In this document: positions 1 to 22,543 of the stretch, piece by piece
How positions within the stretch are numbered: position 1 is the first letter of the stretch
Layout of the letters: each line of letters opens with the position of its first letter
Source: Albimonas pacifica
GTDB lineage: Bacteria; Pseudomonadota; Alphaproteobacteria; Rhodobacterales; Rhodobacteraceae
NCBI RefSeq assembly: GCF_900113695.1
Contig: NZ_FOQH01000003.1
Location: 496,001 to 560,000, forward strand
Length of the DNA stretch: 64,000 bases
Direction of reading: 5' to 3'
The notes under the pieces: generated by a model
What the model saw: the letters and a program-made list of their open reading frames with translations, nothing else
Database searches by the model: none
What the model was told of the DNA's origin: nothing
Translations under genes and position numbers: made by a program

Positions 1-863
1 AGCCAGTCGACCTCCAGCGCCTCGGACGGGTCGCCGAAGCGGGCGACGACGAACTCCAGCGTCTGCACGCCCGCGTCGCCCTCGACGATCGAGGCGGGGG
101 CGGAGACGGAGACCGAGACCGGGATCTCCCCGTCGGTCACCTCCCACCACCAGACGCCGGGGACGCCGGTGTTGCCGGGCGTGCTCTCGAGCGCGAGCAT
201 GCCGGCCTGGTCGCCGGACGGGGGCAGCTCGAAATAGGCGCCGTCGACGCCCGCGGTCCAGCCGGCGCGCGCGGCGGCGCCCCCCAGGCCCCCCTCGCCG
301 CCCGAGGCGTCGCCGGCGGTCCAGTTCACGTTCTCGTAGCGGAACATGATGTTGAAGTCGCCGGCCGACCGCCCGTCCTGGCCCGAGGCGTCCTCGAGCA
401 CGATCTGGAAGGCGGAGGTCCGCTCGCTCCCGTAGGCGTAGTGGCCCACGTCGTCCCAGGTGATCGTCACGCGGTCGAGGACGGGGTCGACGTCGTACCA
501 CACCAGGTTCGAGCCGGTGGAATTCCCCCCGGGGCTGACGGCCGTGGGCCCGGAGCGGGTGTCGACGTCGGCGAAGAAGGCGAACAGGCCGGCGGTGGAG
601 CCGGCGGTGATCGCGAAGGGGGTGAAGCTCGCCAGCGGCTGGGCGAAGGTGACGTTGCCGTTGGTATTGACGTAGAGGCCCGTGTACTCGGTCCCGAAGA
701 AGCGCAGCCCGGTCTCGAACACGGCCGTGAGGTCGACGAACGCCGAATGGCCGTCGTCGCTGCGCGCGACCGACCCCTCGCCGAAGCCCGCCTCGCCGCC
801 CAGTCCGTCGATCAGGACCCCGCCCGGGTGCGCCGGGTCGTCGATCAGGCTCGAACCCGCCAT
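1..863 (-). CDS. NIDO-domain and Calx-beta extracellular protein (5' part only)
   Basis: The gene starts with ATG at 863 after a strong GGGAGGAGA ribosome-binding site and runs off the left edge, so about 287 residues are visible and the C-terminus is missing. Residues about 40-225 look like a nidogen-type NIDO domain: the run LYVNTNGNVTF, then LFAFFADVDTR, then FNIMFRYENVNW. From about residue 250 a Calx-beta-like segment begins (VSAPASIVEGDAGVQTLEF). There is no N-terminal signal peptide, which in this domain context suggests type I (RTX-like) secretion or a very large adhesin. No glycine-rich calcium repeats are visible, but they would lie beyond the edge. The exact function is unknown. 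Confidence 0.8.
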   Translation of the reverse strand, partial: MAGSSLIDDPAHPGGVLIDGLGGEAGFGEGSVARSDDGHSAFVDLTAVFETGLRFFGTEYTGLYVNTNGNVTFAQPLASFTPFAITAGSTAGLFAFFADVDTRSGPTAVSPGGNSTGSNLVWYDVDPVLDRVTITWDDVGHYAYGSERTSAFQIVLEDASGQDGRSAGDFNIMFRYENVNWTAGDASGGEGGLGGAAARAGWTAGVDGAYFELPPSGDQAGMLALESTPGNTGVPGVWWWEVTDGEIPVSVSVSAPASIVEGDAGVQTLEFVVARFGDPSEALEVDW

Positions 864-1419
864 GGCTCGTCTCCTCCCACATGCGATGCCGGCGCGCCGT
901 CTCATCCGGCATGCCGTCCGGCCCCCCGGGCCGCCGACCTGCGTCGCGCGGCCATGCGGGCCGCGCGGGACGCGCGAAGCTGAACCTGCACCCCCCCGTC
1001 CCGGCCGGTCGCGCAGGGGCCCGGCGGCGGGCGGGGTCGCCTCGGCCGGGTCCGAGTCGTCTTGTCTCCCAAGACGACGAACGAATTGCTAACGCCGCGT
1101 CCCGATATCGGAAACGGCTGATTAAGCAACATGAATGCAGCCGCAAGCATCTCCGGGCCGAGGCCCGGCCGGCTCACGATTTGTTAAGCTTCGCGCCGGA
1201 TCTCTTGGCCGGCCGGGGGCCGCGGCGTGGCCGCCGGGACCGGCCGCGTCGGTCCGCTTGGGGGCGCGCCCTTGAAGGCCCCCCGGCGAAGGCATAGGAC
1301 AGAAGGGCGAGTTTCTCTGATCGCCCTCTCCGCGCCCGTCCGGGTCCGCGCGACGGCGCCCGCCATGACCCCTCCCGCGCCCGTTCAGGGCCGCGCGCCC
1401 GCATCCGAAAGGCCGATCC
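864..1419. other. Intergenic region between the NIDO gene and clpP
   Basis: About 555 bases lie between two divergent genes. Most of it is GC-rich without a convincing reading frame. An AT-richer island at about 1080-1140 holds the 10-base palindrome CCGATATCGG (1102-1111) and could carry the promoter or operator of the NIDO gene. The clpP promoter should lie nearer 1270-1310. Confidence 0.6.
1271..1297 (+). promoter_or_regulatory. Possible heat-shock type promoter of clpP
   Basis: CTTGAA at 1271-1276 resembles the -35 element of RpoH promoters. A CATAGG-like -10 follows after about 18 bases (1293). clpP is a usual RpoH target in this class, so the match is sensible, but the -10 is weak and the call is an inference. 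Confidence 0.3.
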
Positions 1420-2052
1420 ATGAAGGACCCCGTCGAGCATTACATGAACACCCTGGTCCCGATGGTGGTCGAGCAGACCGCCCGGGGCGAGCGCGCCTAC
1501 GACATCTTCTCGCGCCTGCTGAAGGAGCGGATCATCTTCGTCTCGGGGCCTGTCCATGACGGCATGTCGACCCTGATCGTGGCGCAGCTGCTGTTCCTCG
1601 AGGCCGAGAATCCCAAGAAGGAGATCTCGATGTACATCAACTCCCCGGGCGGGGTGGTGACGTCGGGGCTCTCGATCTACGACACGATGCAGTACATCCG
1701 GCCGAAGGTCTCGACGCTGTGCGTGGGGCAGGCGGCCTCGATGGGCTCGCTGCTGCTGACCGCGGGGGCGAAGGACATGCGCTTCTCGCTGCCCAACTCC
1801 CGGATCATGGTCCACCAGCCCTCCGGCGGCTACCAGGGCCAGGCGACCGACATCCTGATCCACGCGCGCGAGACCGAGGCGCTGAAGCGGCGCCTGAACG
1901 AGATCTACGTGCACCACACCGGCCAGGACTACGCCACGGTCGAGGCGGCGCTGGAGCGCGACAACTTCATGAGCCCCGAGACCGCGAAGGACTGGGGGCT
2001 GATCGACGAGATCGTCACCAGCCGCGCCGATCCCGAGGCCCCCTCGGCCTGA
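1420..2052 (+). CDS. clpP: ATP-dependent Clp protease proteolytic subunit ClpP
   Basis: ClpP is the serine peptidase barrel that degrades proteins unfolded by ClpX or ClpA in the cytoplasm. The 210-residue length is typical. The catalytic triad is visible as Ser107 (GQAASMGS), His132 (MVHQPSGG) and Asp181 (ERDNFMS); the spacing from Ser to Asp equals that of the E. coli enzyme. The handle region with YINSPGG (about 72-78) is conserved. The start ATG at 1420 follows GAAAGG. A hairpin follows the stop, and clpX lies about 250 bases downstream on the same strand, so the two may be read together or separately. Confidence 0.98.
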
Positions 2053-2057
2053 TCGGG

Positions 2058-2092
2058 GCGCGCCGGGCTCCGCGGAACGGAGTCCGGCGCGC
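2058..2092 (+). terminator. Hairpin after clpP
   Basis: A 15-base-pair stem (one G-T pair) of GCGCGCCGGGCTCCG with CGGAGTCCGGCGCGC and a five-base loop begins six bases after the clpP stop codon. No T-run follows, so it may act as an attenuator or RNA-stabilising hairpin between clpP and clpX rather than a full terminator. Confidence 0.55.
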
Positions 2093-2302
2093 GGCGCGCG
2101 CCTGCACGGCCGCGCGCGACGACGCGATCACGGTTTCGTCGTCGGGCTGCGTCGGATTTGCGGGGGCTTCGCCCTTGCCTCGGCCGCCGCGGCGTGCAGG
2201 AATGGGAGAAACGCCGGGATTCGCTGCGCGAAGCTAGCGATCCCTTAAGGTTCGAGGACCTACGGTGACCCCGTGGCGCGAACCACGGGGCGGGAGAACT
2301 GG

Positions 2303-3574
<1,272 letters not shown>

Positions 3575-3598
3575 GCCTTCTCTGCCGCGACGATTTCG

Positions 3599-3634
3599 AC
3601 GGGAGCGCCCAACCGGGCGCTCCCGTTTCGTTTG
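3599..3634 (+). terminator. Rho-independent terminator of clpX
   Basis: GGGAGCGCCC (3601-3610) pairs perfectly with GGGCGCTCCC (3615-3624) across a four-base loop, two more pairs extend the stem outward, and a T-rich tail GTTTCGTTT follows. Confidence 0.85.
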
Positions 3635-3695
3635 GGCGGGGCGGGAAGGCGCCGGGATCCAGCGCGGGCCAGTCGCCGCACGCCGGGGAACACGG

Positions 3696-4730
3696 TCACT
3701 TCCGCAGCAGGTGCTGATCCACCCAGGCGCCGGTCTTGGCGAAAGCGGCCTTGGCTTCCGGAGACGCCGGCCGTTGCGCTATGAAGACATGCGGCATGCC
3801 TTCGTACAGATCGAGCTTCACCGTCCGCCCCGACTGGTCGAGCGCCTGATACAGGCGGATGAAGTCGCTCACGAACAACTCCCTGGTGCCGCCGCCCTGG
3901 ATCAGCGTCGGGGGAAAGCCCGCGGCGAAGTCCCCGTAGACGGGCGAAACATAGGGATTCCGCTGATCCGCCTCGTCGGCATAGGCGATCGCGGAGGGAC
4001 CCAGCACAGCCCTGTACGTATAGTTCGCTTCTGCATCGCGGAGCGTTCTGTACGTGTCGCCCGTCTCGGTGACGTCGGCCCAGGGGGACCAGAGGACAAG
4101 CGCGGCGGGCATCTCGAGCCCCTCGTCGCGCATCCTGAGGACGCTTCCGGCCGCAAGTCCGCCGCCCGCGGAATCCCCGGCAAGGACGATGTCGCGCCCG
4201 CCGACGCCTGCTTCAGCCAGCGCGGCGAATACCGAGACGACCTCGCCGGTCGCCTGGTCCCACTGGGCGTGGGGGGCGAGGGTGTACTCTATGGAGATCA
4301 CCTTCAATCCGGTCGCCGCGGCGAAGAGCACCGCCTGCGGGGTCTTGGCGACGCCGAGCACGTAGGCGCCGCCGTGGGTGTAGACGCCGATCCTGTCGTC
4401 GCCGACAGGATCGGCCGGGATGATCTCGACGACTGGAACGCCTCCGATCTCGGTGTCGCGGAACGTGATGCCCAGGCCCGCTGCAAGGACTTCGGCGGCG
4501 GCGGCATTCTGGGCCCCCGCCGCCGTCCGAACCGTCGTCCAGCCGTCCACGTCGTCGGGCGCAGGCACTGTCTGATCGCGGTTCTTGCCCTTTTCGGCGA
4601 AGAAGGCGCTCCAGTCGGGAGAGATCGTCGTGGGCGCCTGCGCCCAGAGCGGCTGCGAGTCCTGGGCCGCTCCCACGGATCCGCTGGCTGCCAGGACGGA
4701 GAAGGCCGTCGCGATCAGGTGCAATTTCAT
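3696..4730 (-). CDS. Secreted alpha/beta hydrolase, hormone-sensitive-lipase family esterase
   Basis: The 344-residue protein has a cleavable-looking signal peptide (about residues 1-22, ending GSVGAA), so it probably acts in the periplasm or outside. The oxyanion motif HGG (119-121), the nucleophile Ser187 in GDSAGGG, an acid in the segment around 286, and His314 (GMPHVF) are the marks of the HSL/acetyl-esterase family; small acyl esters are the likely substrates. It lies on the minus strand between clpX and lon, which sit close together in many alphaproteobacteria, and its codon choice looks looser and less GC-rich than the flanking genes. Both points suggest a later arrival. The substrate cannot be told. 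Confidence 0.88.
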   Translation of the reverse strand: MKLHLIATAFSVLAASGSVGAAQDSQPLWAQAPTTISPDWSAFFAEKGKNRDQTVPAPDDVDGWTTVRTAAGAQNAAAAEVLAAGLGITFRDTEIGGVPVVEIIPADPVGDDRIGVYTHGGAYVLGVAKTPQAVLFAAATGLKVISIEYTLAPHAQWDQATGEVVSVFAALAEAGVGGRDIVLAGDSAGGGLAAGSVLRMRDEGLEMPAALVLWSPWADVTETGDTYRTLRDAEANYTYRAVLGPSAIAYADEADQRNPYVSPVYGDFAAGFPPTLIQGGGTRELFVSDFIRLYQALDQSGRTVKLDLYEGMPHVFIAQRPASPEAKAAFAKTGAWVDQHLLRK

Positions 4731-5210
4731 GGATGTCTCGCCTCCTTGCGGTCGACGCGGGGCGCTGCCCGCTGTCGGTGCATTCGCCGCCGAGGTCGTC
4801 GGTTGCCCCGACCAGAACTAAGGCATCGCCTCCCCGTGCGGATTGTCCTGGATCAAGGGCGACGGTCCGAGCATGGCTGCGGCCGACCTCCGAAGGTCCG
4901 GCACGTCCGCTCCGCAGACATGCGCAATCCTCAAGAGCCCCGGCGTGCTCGGCGGTCAGGCCTGCGGCGGGCGGCGCGACCCGGCTGCCGGGGACGCCTG
5001 CTCCGGCGTGGCCCCTGCCGGGCGGCTCCGCGGATATCAGGGTGAAGTCCCGACCGACCCCGCCCCCGCGACCTTCGACTCCTTGATTCCGCCCTCTCCC
5101 CGCTCCACTTTCAGGGATCGCCGCGCCGCGTATCGCGGGCGGCGACTCCCTCCCGGGATCCCCCCGTCGCCGCTGGCCGGGACCGGGCGATCCGCCGAAA
5201 AGGAAGCACC
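4731..5210. other. Divergent intergenic region between the esterase and lon
   Basis: About 480 bases with no convincing gene. It should hold the promoters of the esterase (minus) and lon (plus). I found no heat-shock promoter with acceptable spacing in front of lon. Confidence 0.5.
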
Positions 5211-7628
<2,418 letters not shown>

Positions 7629-19874: not shown

Positions 19875-20483
19875 TCAGCCGCGCCGGCGCCCGCGGGCGG
19901 TCAGCGCCAGCCCGGCCAGCCCGGCGCCCAGCAGGGGCAGGGCCGCGGGCAGGGGAATCGGGGTCGCGCCGGTGATCGCCACCTCGACGAAGTCGGCCGC
20001 CTTGGCCGTGTCGTAGGAGGCCACCACGTAGTAGGTCGTCATCGCCGGGATGATCAGCGTCACCGCGGGGGAGGTCTGCTGCGGGGCCATGACGTTGCCG
20101 GCCGAGCCGGAGGTCGGCAGCAGCACCCAGCGCAGCGTGCTGGCCGCGTAGGTGTCGGCGTTGCCGGCGTACATGAAGAAGTTCAGGAACTCGGGGTTCC
20201 CGCCGCCGGCGTTCTGGGCGTAGCCCGTGACGCTGATCGCGTAGGGCGAGGCGGTGTCGTTCACCAGGTCCCAGGTGATCACCGCGCCGTCGTTGCAGGT
20301 CGCCGCGCAGACGTCGACCCAGCGGTCCTCGAAATAGACGACGCCCCCCTCCTCGTAGCCCGGGCCGCTGTTCACGCCGTCCGGGATCAGGATCGTGTAG
20401 TCGCTGATGGACACCGCGCCGGCCGCGAGCGGGAACAGCCCCAGCAGCGCGACGATTCCCATCAAGATAGATCGCATGTTCAT
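19875..20483 (-). CDS. Exported protein with IPLPA-type C-terminal sorting signal
   Basis: The 202-residue protein has an N-terminal signal peptide (MNMRSILMGIVALLGLFPLA, then AGAVS) and a C-terminal tripartite tail: IPLPAALPLLGAGLAGLAL followed by basic TARGRRRG. This is the VPLPA-CTERM design, recognised in Rhodobacterales and cleaved by an exosortase such as XrtD. The mature domain of about 150 residues is rich in beta-strand-like, Thr/Ser/Tyr-containing stretches and has one Cys pair near residues 59-63; I do not recognise it. The start at 20483 follows GTGGGGG. It lies just downstream of the thioester-domain protein on the same strand, possibly as a surface-protein pair. Confidence 0.85.
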   Translation of the reverse strand: MNMRSILMGIVALLGLFPLAAGAVSISDYTILIPDGVNSGPGYEEGGVVYFEDRWVDVCAATCNDGAVITWDLVNDTASPYAISVTGYAQNAGGGNPEFLNFFMYAGNADTYAASTLRWVLLPTSGSAGNVMAPQQTSPAVTLIIPAMTTYYVVASYDTAKAADFVEVAITGATPIPLPAALPLLGAGLAGLALTARGRRRG

Positions 20484-20608: not shown

Positions 20609-22543
20609 TCACATCAGCATATGCGCGTCGCAGTCCTCGAGCTGGAAGCCGGCGATGAAGATCTGGCCGTTCGAGACGTAGCCGCTCTCCTCGCTGCCGG
20701 AGACCGGCTGGAAGATCATGCCGACCGTCTGGCCGAGGTCCGCGTCGGGGACGAAGCCCTCGCCCTCGGCCTGGGCGGCGGCCACGATCGCCGCGGCCCC
20801 CGCGCTGAGCTGGATGCCCGGCGTGAAGATCAGCGTATCGATGCCGCCGCGGTCGTCCACGAGCTGCCAGATCGCGCTCTGGATGTCGTTGTAGCTGTAG
20901 GTCCCCTCGTAGCCCTGGTTCAGGATCCAGTTCACGAGGTCGAGGTTCTCGGGGTTGTCGACGAAGGAGCCGCCGTCGAACGAGGTCGTGGGCAGGCCGT
21001 CGGCGTCGAGGCTCGAGTAGACCAGCACGTCGGTCGGCGCTGTGTTCAGCGGCCGGTCGCGGTCGATGCAGTAGATCTGCGTGTAGCCGCCGCCGAGGCC
21101 GGCGAGATCGCCCGCGAAGTCGAACGCGCCGGTGATGCCGCCGCCGCCGGGCAGGCCCAGCAGGTCGACGAAGGCCGAAGCCGGGTCGTCGTTGCCGATC
21201 GTCTCGACGAGGTTCAGCGCGCCGCCGATGGTCACCGACACCTCGGCGAAGCCGGGGGCGCCGTCCGAATCGAACACCGCGTATTCGAAGGTGTCGACCG
21301 CGTGCTCGCCGATCAGCAGGTCGTCCCAGACGCCGGCGGAGTCGTAGACCAGCTCGCCGTCGACGAGCGTCACCCGCGCGCCGCTGTCGAGGGTGATCCA
21401 CTCGCCCGGGGCGAGGTCGGCGAAATACTGGGCGCCGGTGGCGGTGAACACCGCGGCGATGGTCAGGCCCCAGTTCTCCTCCGCGCCGAAGTCGGTCTCG
21501 CCGGGGTCGAGGTCGTTGGCCAGCAGGTCGATCGTCACCTGGTCGCCGGCGCAGACCGCGGCCGCGTCGTCGGCCGGCTCGGGCGGGGCGGCGTTGTTGA
21601 AGCCGCCGCAGTCGAGCGCGCCGGTCTCGCCGGTGATCTTGAGCGAGTCCTCGCGGCGGCCGCCCTCCTCGCCGACCGAAGTCAGGCGCGCGGCGACGCC
21701 CTGGTCGGCCAGGTCGTCGAGCGTCAGCGCGCCGTCGAGGTTGACCAGGTAGAACGTGGTCGAGCGCACGTCGTCCGCGCCGACGCCGGAGCTGCCGAAC
21801 TCGACGCCCACGTCGTAGGCGGCGCCGGTTCCCTTGACGTTGACGCCGTTGCCGAGGTCGTTGACCGACTCGTGGCCGAACTTCGACTCGGTCACGTCGT
21901 CGCCGTAGATCGCGAGGTCGCCCTCGACCCCGTCGTCGACGTTGAAGAACAGGCCGCGCAGGTCGCCGATGCGGGCCGCGTCGTCGGCCACGACCACGTC
22001 GAAGCGCAGGGCGTCGTTCTCGAGCTGGGTGACGGTGACCACCACCTTCACGCCGTCGAGCTCGAGGGTGAAGCTGCACTGCGCCACCTCGGCGCCGGGC
22101 TCGAATTCGGGCGTCTCGTCGGGGCCGCAGCCGCCCTTGCCGCCCCAGCCGTGATCGTCCTTGCCGCCCCAGGAGGCGCCGCCCTTGGAGCCGCCGTAGC
22201 CGCCCTTGGCGCCGCAGGACTCCCAGGACGAGCCGCCCTTGGACCCGCCCCAGCCGGAGCCGCCTTTCGAGCCGCCCCAGCCGCAATCGTCCTTGTCGCC
22301 CCAGGAGGAGGAAGAGCCCCAGGAGGAGCCGCCCTTGGATCCGCCGTGGTCCTTCGACCCGCCCCAGCCCCCGGACGATCCCCCCGAAGAACCCCAGCCC
22401 CCCGAGGATCCCCCGTGGCCGCCCGACGACCCGCCGTAGCCGCCCTTGGACCCCCAGGCGTCATGGCCGGAGCCGCCATGGCCCTTCGAATAGCCCGAGA
22501 AGGACCCCGAGCCGGAGCCATAGTTCAAATAGCCGTACGTCAC
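20609..22543 (-). CDS. Large surface protein with Gly/Ser/Trp-rich head and probable thioester domain
   Basis: The 644-residue protein starts at a GTG after GGGGATC. Residues 1-140 are low-complexity, built of GGSKGG, GGSSGG and GWGG units with Trp about every ten residues. Residues about 153-310 form an unrecognised beta-rich domain (QCSFTLELDGVKVVVTVTQ). Residues about 320-440 look like a cadherin/VCBS-type Ig module (VTIDLLANDLDPG, then DTFEYAVFDSDG). Residues about 455-640 resemble a thioester (TQXA) domain: Cys492 in YTQIYCIDRDRPL and Gln555 in IQSAIWQL are placed as the Cys-Gln pair that forms an intramolecular thioester in Gram-positive adhesins. There is no signal peptide or anchor, so type I secretion is possible. 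It may be an adhesin or matrix protein. Confidence 0.85.
   Translation of the reverse strand: MTYGYLNYGSGSGSFSGYSKGHGGSGHDAWGSKGGYGGSSGGHGGSSGGWGSSGGSSGGWGGSKDHGGSKGGSSWGSSSSWGDKDDCGWGGSKGGSGWGGSKGGSSWESCGAKGGYGGSKGGASWGGKDDHGWGGKGGCGPDETPEFEPGAEVAQCSFTLELDGVKVVVTVTQLENDALRFDVVVADDAARIGDLRGLFFNVDDGVEGDLAIYGDDVTESKFGHESVNDLGNGVNVKGTGAAYDVGVEFGSSGVGADDVRSTTFYLVNLDGALTLDDLADQGVAARLTSVGEEGGRREDSLKITGETGALDCGGFNNAAPPEPADDAAAVCAGDQVTIDLLANDLDPGETDFGAEENWGLTIAAVFTATGAQYFADLAPGEWITLDSGARVTLVDGELVYDSAGVWDDLLIGEHAVDTFEYAVFDSDGAPGFAEVSVTIGGALNLVETIGNDDPASAFVDLLGLPGGGGITGAFDFAGDLAGLGGGYTQIYCIDRDRPLNTAPTDVLVYSSLDADGLPTTSFDGGSFVDNPENLDLVNWILNQGYEGTYSYNDIQSAIWQLVDDRGGIDTLIFTPGIQLSAGAAAIVAAAQAEGEGFVPDADLGQTVGMIFQPVSGSEESGYVSNGQIFIAGFQLEDCDAHMLM

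Follow-up and report, generated by a model that had tools for sequence, protein, structure and literature searches.

A C-terminal thioester domain in a predicted secreted protein of Albimonas pacifica, and its gene-order association with exosortase sorting in relatives

Thioester domains (TEDs) were described as occurring exclusively in Gram-positive bacteria (Walden 2015, PMC4450167), and a survey lists them for Firmicutes and many Actinobacteria (PMC8286594). Their internal thioester joins a Cys and a Gln residue, as in the pairs Cys109-Gln261 of SfbI and Cys138-Gln267 of CpTIE (PMC4450167, PMC6194298), and in the solved class I domains these residues are 129-153 positions apart (PMC4450167). 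The Gln of the TQxxΦW motif on helix α2 is dispensable and is not the bonding residue (Walden 2015, PMC4450167; Miller 2018, PMC6194298). The bonding Gln lies in the later ΦQζΦΦ motif on strand Q (PMC4450167, PMC6194298), a motif that Walden 2015 itself calls weak (PMC4450167).

We analyzed a 64,000-nucleotide stretch of the Albimonas pacifica genome (the window), in which a predicted TED surface protein of 644 amino acids is encoded on the reverse strand at positions 20609..22543, with a GTG start. The ORF of this length named in the original prediction is real, because two congeners, Albimonas sp. CAU 1670 and A. donghaensis, carry the gene at the same genomic location. The homologues are 58% and 43% identical to the window protein, and the synteny extends to both flanks, with RND efflux genes on one side and coxG/S/M-like genes on the other.

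The protein can be divided into four regions, all encoded on the reverse strand. The N-terminal region (residues 1-141; 22121..22543) is hydrophilic and rich in Gly, Ser, Trp and Lys, and similar N-termini were found at three further loci (L013, L014 and L074). An all-β domain (about residues 150-312; 21608..22096), delineated from AlphaFold2 secondary structure, belongs to no Pfam family; by eye, this module is common to the window protein and its Limimaricola variabilis homologue. It is followed by a Big_9/cadherin-like Ig stalk module (residues 320-438; 21230..21586) and by the TED at the C-terminus (about residues 455-637; 20633..21181). The Ig-like module had been proposed earlier; in the window protein itself the Big_9 match is weak (15 bits against a cut-off of 23.6), whereas relatives exceed the cut-off, with Big_9 immediately N-terminal to the TED at loci L015, L032, L036, L042 and L043. 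The NCBIfam and PADLOC scans of the window protein gave no matches, and a fold search with a 504-residue model was uninformative, returning mostly generic β-sandwich stalks.

The C-terminal domain is a genuine TED, as had been proposed; the assignment is upheld by the Pfam match, the conservation of the motifs, the predicted topology and a fold search. The PF08341 profile matches residues 490-565. Its score is borderline, falling just under the cut-off of 22 in the whole 644-residue protein (21.7 bits) and exceeding it for the isolated region (24.3 bits) and in the genome search (25.8 bits), and only 13 of the 31 members of our alignment pass an E-value of 0.01. In the AlphaFold2 model of the domain (id m00fe27403ae9; mean pLDDT 79) strands are followed by three helices and then by two strands. 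Cys492 closes the third strand, Gln555 lies on the second main helix (model residues 126-137; equivalent to α2) and Gln627 immediately precedes the final strand, so that the order β(Cys)-β-α1-α2(Q555/W559)-α3-βP-βQ(Q627) matches that of solved TEDs. When the model was compared with the PDB by Foldseek, the sole confident match was 5dcq (probability 0.99; runner-up 0.03), the FNE protein of Streptococcus equi, which we take to carry a thioester domain; the E-value of this match is only 5.9e-3 and its TM-score about 0.42-0.47. Both the order of elements and this match agree with the TED fold of a β-barrel and three helices. Searches of the PDB by sequence and by profile gave no TED match. We also considered and rejected a chance occurrence of the motifs, because distant relatives retain all three residues; in addition, when the protein was shuffled 20,000 times, a [YFL]C-Φ-polar motif followed by ΦQxAΦW appeared once, and never when the third motif was required as well.

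The domain resembles class I TEDs (SfbI, FbaB, Cpa, CpTIE, PnTIE; PF08341) in its Cys motif, its TQxxΦW-type helix motif and the downstream Gln at the last strand, as well as in the predicted order of strands and three helices and the short link between α3 and strand P. It differs from them in its diderm host and CTERM/exosortase neighbors; where class I domains have helix α0, between strand D and α1, the model shows only a 3-residue helical turn (near 89-91). Class II TEDs (BaTIE, SaTIE, EfmTIE86 and the Bacillus subtilis conjugation adhesin) share the core and the motifs but carry a seven-stranded β-sandwich insertion of about 75 residues between α3 and strand P. This insertion is absent here, the gap between α3 (helix 156-168) and strand P (181-188) being about 12 residues in the model. 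Complement/α2-macroglobulin proteins share the internal Cys-Gln thioester chemistry that is predicted here, and use a contiguous CGEQ motif. This motif was not found in the sequence of the window protein, and a complement-type thioester was considered and rejected.

The original prediction paired the Cys of YTQIYCID (Cys492) with the Gln of IQSAIWQL (Gln555), and both motifs were found at these residues. The predicted thioester Cys, Cys492 (21068-21070, reverse strand), lies on strand C in the sequence YCID, which fits the pattern [YFL]C-hydrophobic-hydrophilic; it is invariant in alignment A1 and at least 90% conserved in A2 (31 sequences). Gln555 (20879-20881, reverse strand) belongs to IQSAIW on helix α2, a TQxxΦW-type motif with Ile replacing Thr, and is expected to be structural rather than bonding (PMC4450167, PMC6194298). 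Gln627 (20663..20665, reverse strand) lies in SNGQIFI at strand Q, a loose fit to ΦQζΦΦ with Gly preceding the Gln. Gln555, the Trp of AIW and Gln627 are all invariant in the 31-sequence alignment. By position and conservation the bonding residue is most likely Gln627, and the predicted pair is Cys492-Gln627, with a spacing of 135 residues that falls within the range of class I domains.

The pairing of Cys492 with Gln555 is therefore most likely wrong, since solved TEDs bond through the strand-Q Gln, here Gln627. The conservation of both residues is in its favor, but we find this bond scarcely credible, given that the TQxxΦW Gln is dispensable and non-bonding in solved TEDs and that the expected position of the bonding Gln is occupied by Gln627. 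For the same reason the distance between Cys492 and Gln555 is the wrong test, because the equivalent of the bonding Gln is Gln627. A further alternative is that the lineage has a TED fold without a thioester, either lost or never present, which serves as a non-covalent carbohydrate- or protein-binding tip. The solved TEDs are only distantly similar to the window domain, and the Cys is replaced by Gly in one homologue that retains both Gln residues (EAYGLQF; locus L080 of genome G065, ORF 381-5780) and appears to be missing in another (L017). Nevertheless, this alternative is unlikely, as Cys492 and Gln627 are both retained among the best-conserved positions of alignments that average only 28% and 23% identity per column, which points to chemistry. 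A lost Cys at a third locus (L026), suggested by the HMM alignment, was rejected, the residue being present by MAFFT.

The Gram-positive TIE architecture consists of an N-terminal TED, a Sec signal and a C-terminal LPXTG motif; the window protein has a C-terminal TED and neither of the other two elements. The earlier statement that it has no cell-wall anchor is borne out, both LPXTG and a C-terminal membrane anchor being absent from the sequence, and sortase anchoring was considered and rejected. No N-terminal signal peptide was found in the protein sequence: the highest 15-residue mean hydropathy among windows starting in residues 1-60 is -0.09, which argues against such a signal, and an earlier start cannot supply one because the open frame begins just 6 codons upstream of the GTG. 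In these respects the protein resembles the type I-secreted RTX adhesins of Gram-negative bacteria, which likewise have a signal-less N-terminus, a stalk of Ig/SdrD_B-type modules and an adhesive module near the C-terminus. In contrast to RTX adhesins, the tip here is a TED, and neither an RTX nor a retention module was identified. The likeness extends to gene context in one genome only, G1115, where the TED gene (locus L074, 1917-7574) is directly followed by genes for a PrtD-type ABC transporter and an HlyD-type adaptor. Type I secretion genes were not found near the window gene; two type I HlyD-family adaptors above the cut-off are encoded elsewhere in the window genome. We infer that the window protein is likely exported by a type I route.

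Relatives were gathered by tblastn and HMM searches, a strict motif regular expression having missed most of them. The domain with all three motifs was found in Rhodobacterales, Cyanobacteria, Bacteroidota, Bdellovibrionota, Planctomycetota and archaea. Within the family of the host (at the level of Rhodobacteraceae) it is present in 20 of the 397 sampled genomes (about 5%). The original view of such a domain as unusual for a Gram-negative bacterium agrees with the published distribution (PMC4450167), yet TEDs recur within this family and in other diderm phyla. Relatives from the same family carry SdrD_B, cadherin-like and Big_9 modules followed by a TED that reaches the C-terminus or stops no more than about fifteen residues short of it. 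Elsewhere, as read by eye, the layouts are different: cyanobacterial TEDs lie near the N-terminus. Five Bacteriovoracaceae loci (L031, L033-L035 and L037) encode proteins of about 215-240 residues that consist of a Sec-like signal, a thioester-type domain and little else. A lipoprotein-like signal precedes the thioester-type domain in Bacteroidota and two metagenome bins (L023, L028, L038 and L040).

The gene next to the TED gene in the window (19875..20483, reverse strand) encodes a protein of 202 residues whose N-terminus is hydrophobic and Sec-like and which carries a VPLPA-CTERM-like sorting signal (encoded at 19884-19958). The TIGR03370 match to residues 176-200 of this protein scores 22.4 bits against a cut-off of 25.35; a VPLPA-CTERM gene above the cut-off occupies the same position at loci L013, L014 and L043, so that the next gene encodes a VPLPA-CTERM protein in three Albimonas and at L043. 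In most TED loci of the family, the TED gene is instead located directly upstream of genes for a VPEID-CTERM mini-protein and exosortase E (XrtE), the two components of the exosortase E/VPEID-CTERM system (TIGR04162, TIGR04161). The window genome differs from these relatives: XrtE (TIGR04162) was not found in it, and it contains XrtD and about 19 VPLPA-CTERM matches. The gaps that we inspected between TED and xrtE genes contain a mini-ORF (about 55-70 codons) whose product carries both a Sec-like and a VPEID-CTERM signal, the sorting motif being mostly VPEIS. By eye, the mature mini-proteins are predicted to be some ten to twenty residues long, mostly without Lys. The same gene order is found on plasmids of Limimaricola variabilis and Alloyangia pacifica, where xrtE is annotated and the TED protein is listed as hypothetical or SdrD B-like. 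On a Paracoccus fistulariae plasmid (L107, 589-6640) the TED gene and the VPEID mini-protein gene are followed by a gene for a Hint-domain protein that replaces xrtE. Just beyond xrtE, the TED loci often encode a large protein, in most cases unnamed (L105, 7276-9588; L106, 6994-9465; L032, 12916-16110; L036, 13908-17525).

The exosortase E/protease family TIGR04162 is present in 42 of the 397 sampled family genomes, including 13 of the 20 TED-positive and 29 of the 377 TED-negative genomes (Fisher test, p=1.5e-9); the test takes genomes as independent, and nearly all of them belong to different genera. Of the 13 co-positive genomes, 12 have the two genes side by side (on the same strand in 11 and convergent in one), and in the thirteenth they lie on separate contigs. 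In the XrtE tree, the TED-linked proteins fall on one side of a branch that separates them from 20 unlinked ones (94/84, 96% of bootstraps). The unlinked XrtE genes (L085-L104, from TED-negative genomes) have varied neighbors, such as genes for ABC transporters, ParA-like proteins and an RNA polymerase subunit-like protein, mostly without a VPEID mini-ORF. A coincidental proximity of unrelated CTERM genes could be argued from the many VPLPA-CTERM matches in the window genome and from three TED genomes in which a CTERM neighbor was not found (G065, G341 and G1115). However, it is highly improbable in view of a gene order kept across many genera, the co-occurrence statistics and the grouping of TED-linked XrtEs on the tree. 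This link to exosortase sorting in relatives is new with respect to the original prediction. Among mostly open papers and a few subscription ones, we found none on VPEID-CTERM with exosortase and none joining exosortases with thioester adhesins.

Using the computed domain, motifs, predicted topology and gene neighborhood, we infer a bond, a secretion route, an orientation, a target and a partnership. The window protein is probably a secreted, stalked and type I-exported TED adhesin or matrix protein with a Cys492-Gln627 thioester and an exosortase-sorted partner. Cys492 and Gln627 would form the internal thioester unaided, with Gln555 and Trp559 on the adjoining helix positioning the Cys backbone. 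Type I export would avoid the oxidizing periplasm and place the TED at the distal tip of the stalk, an arrangement opposite to that of Gram-positive proteins, in which the TED is N-terminal and LPXTG C-terminal. After docking, the target would be captured through an amine (a Lys side chain or other surface amine), which would react with the thioester and end covalently bound to the side-chain carbonyl of Gln627. The sorted partner encoded next door would be the VPLPA-CTERM protein in Albimonas, and the VPEID-CTERM mini-protein with exosortase E in most relatives.

As a version of this explanation, the TED may cross-link the surface of its own cell, joining the CTERM protein or a polysaccharide matrix in biofilm assembly. 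We regard this as possible rather than expected: the CTERM and exosortase genes are tightly linked to the TED gene, and exopolysaccharide genes of the PEP-CTERM-like type were observed near L032 and L043, but once matured the VPEID mini-proteins are very short, usually with no Lys, and gene linkage is no proof of contact. We also considered and rejected a disulfide link between the DCxC tail found in many TED proteins and a Cys pair present in some VPEID peptides, as this pair is too poorly conserved.

For the preferred reading, a stalked adhesin or matrix protein with an exosortase-sorted partner, the pairing of the TED gene with a protein-sorting system in relatives suggests a Gram-negative covalent attachment system. 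In its most specific form, which is speculative and rather doubtful, a type I-secreted TED, exosortase E and a VPEID-CTERM peptide would constitute a covalent attachment module in which the thioester captures the processed peptide or the matrix that it carries, so that thioester chemistry and exosortase sorting together replace sortase and LPXTG anchoring; Albimonas would use a VPLPA-CTERM protein and XrtD instead. A conserved diderm TED in reversed orientation would widen the range of covalent adhesion to include Rhodobacterales and other environmental bacteria, and its gene-order tie to exosortase E and the mini-proteins provides a concrete lead to the purpose of that sorting system.
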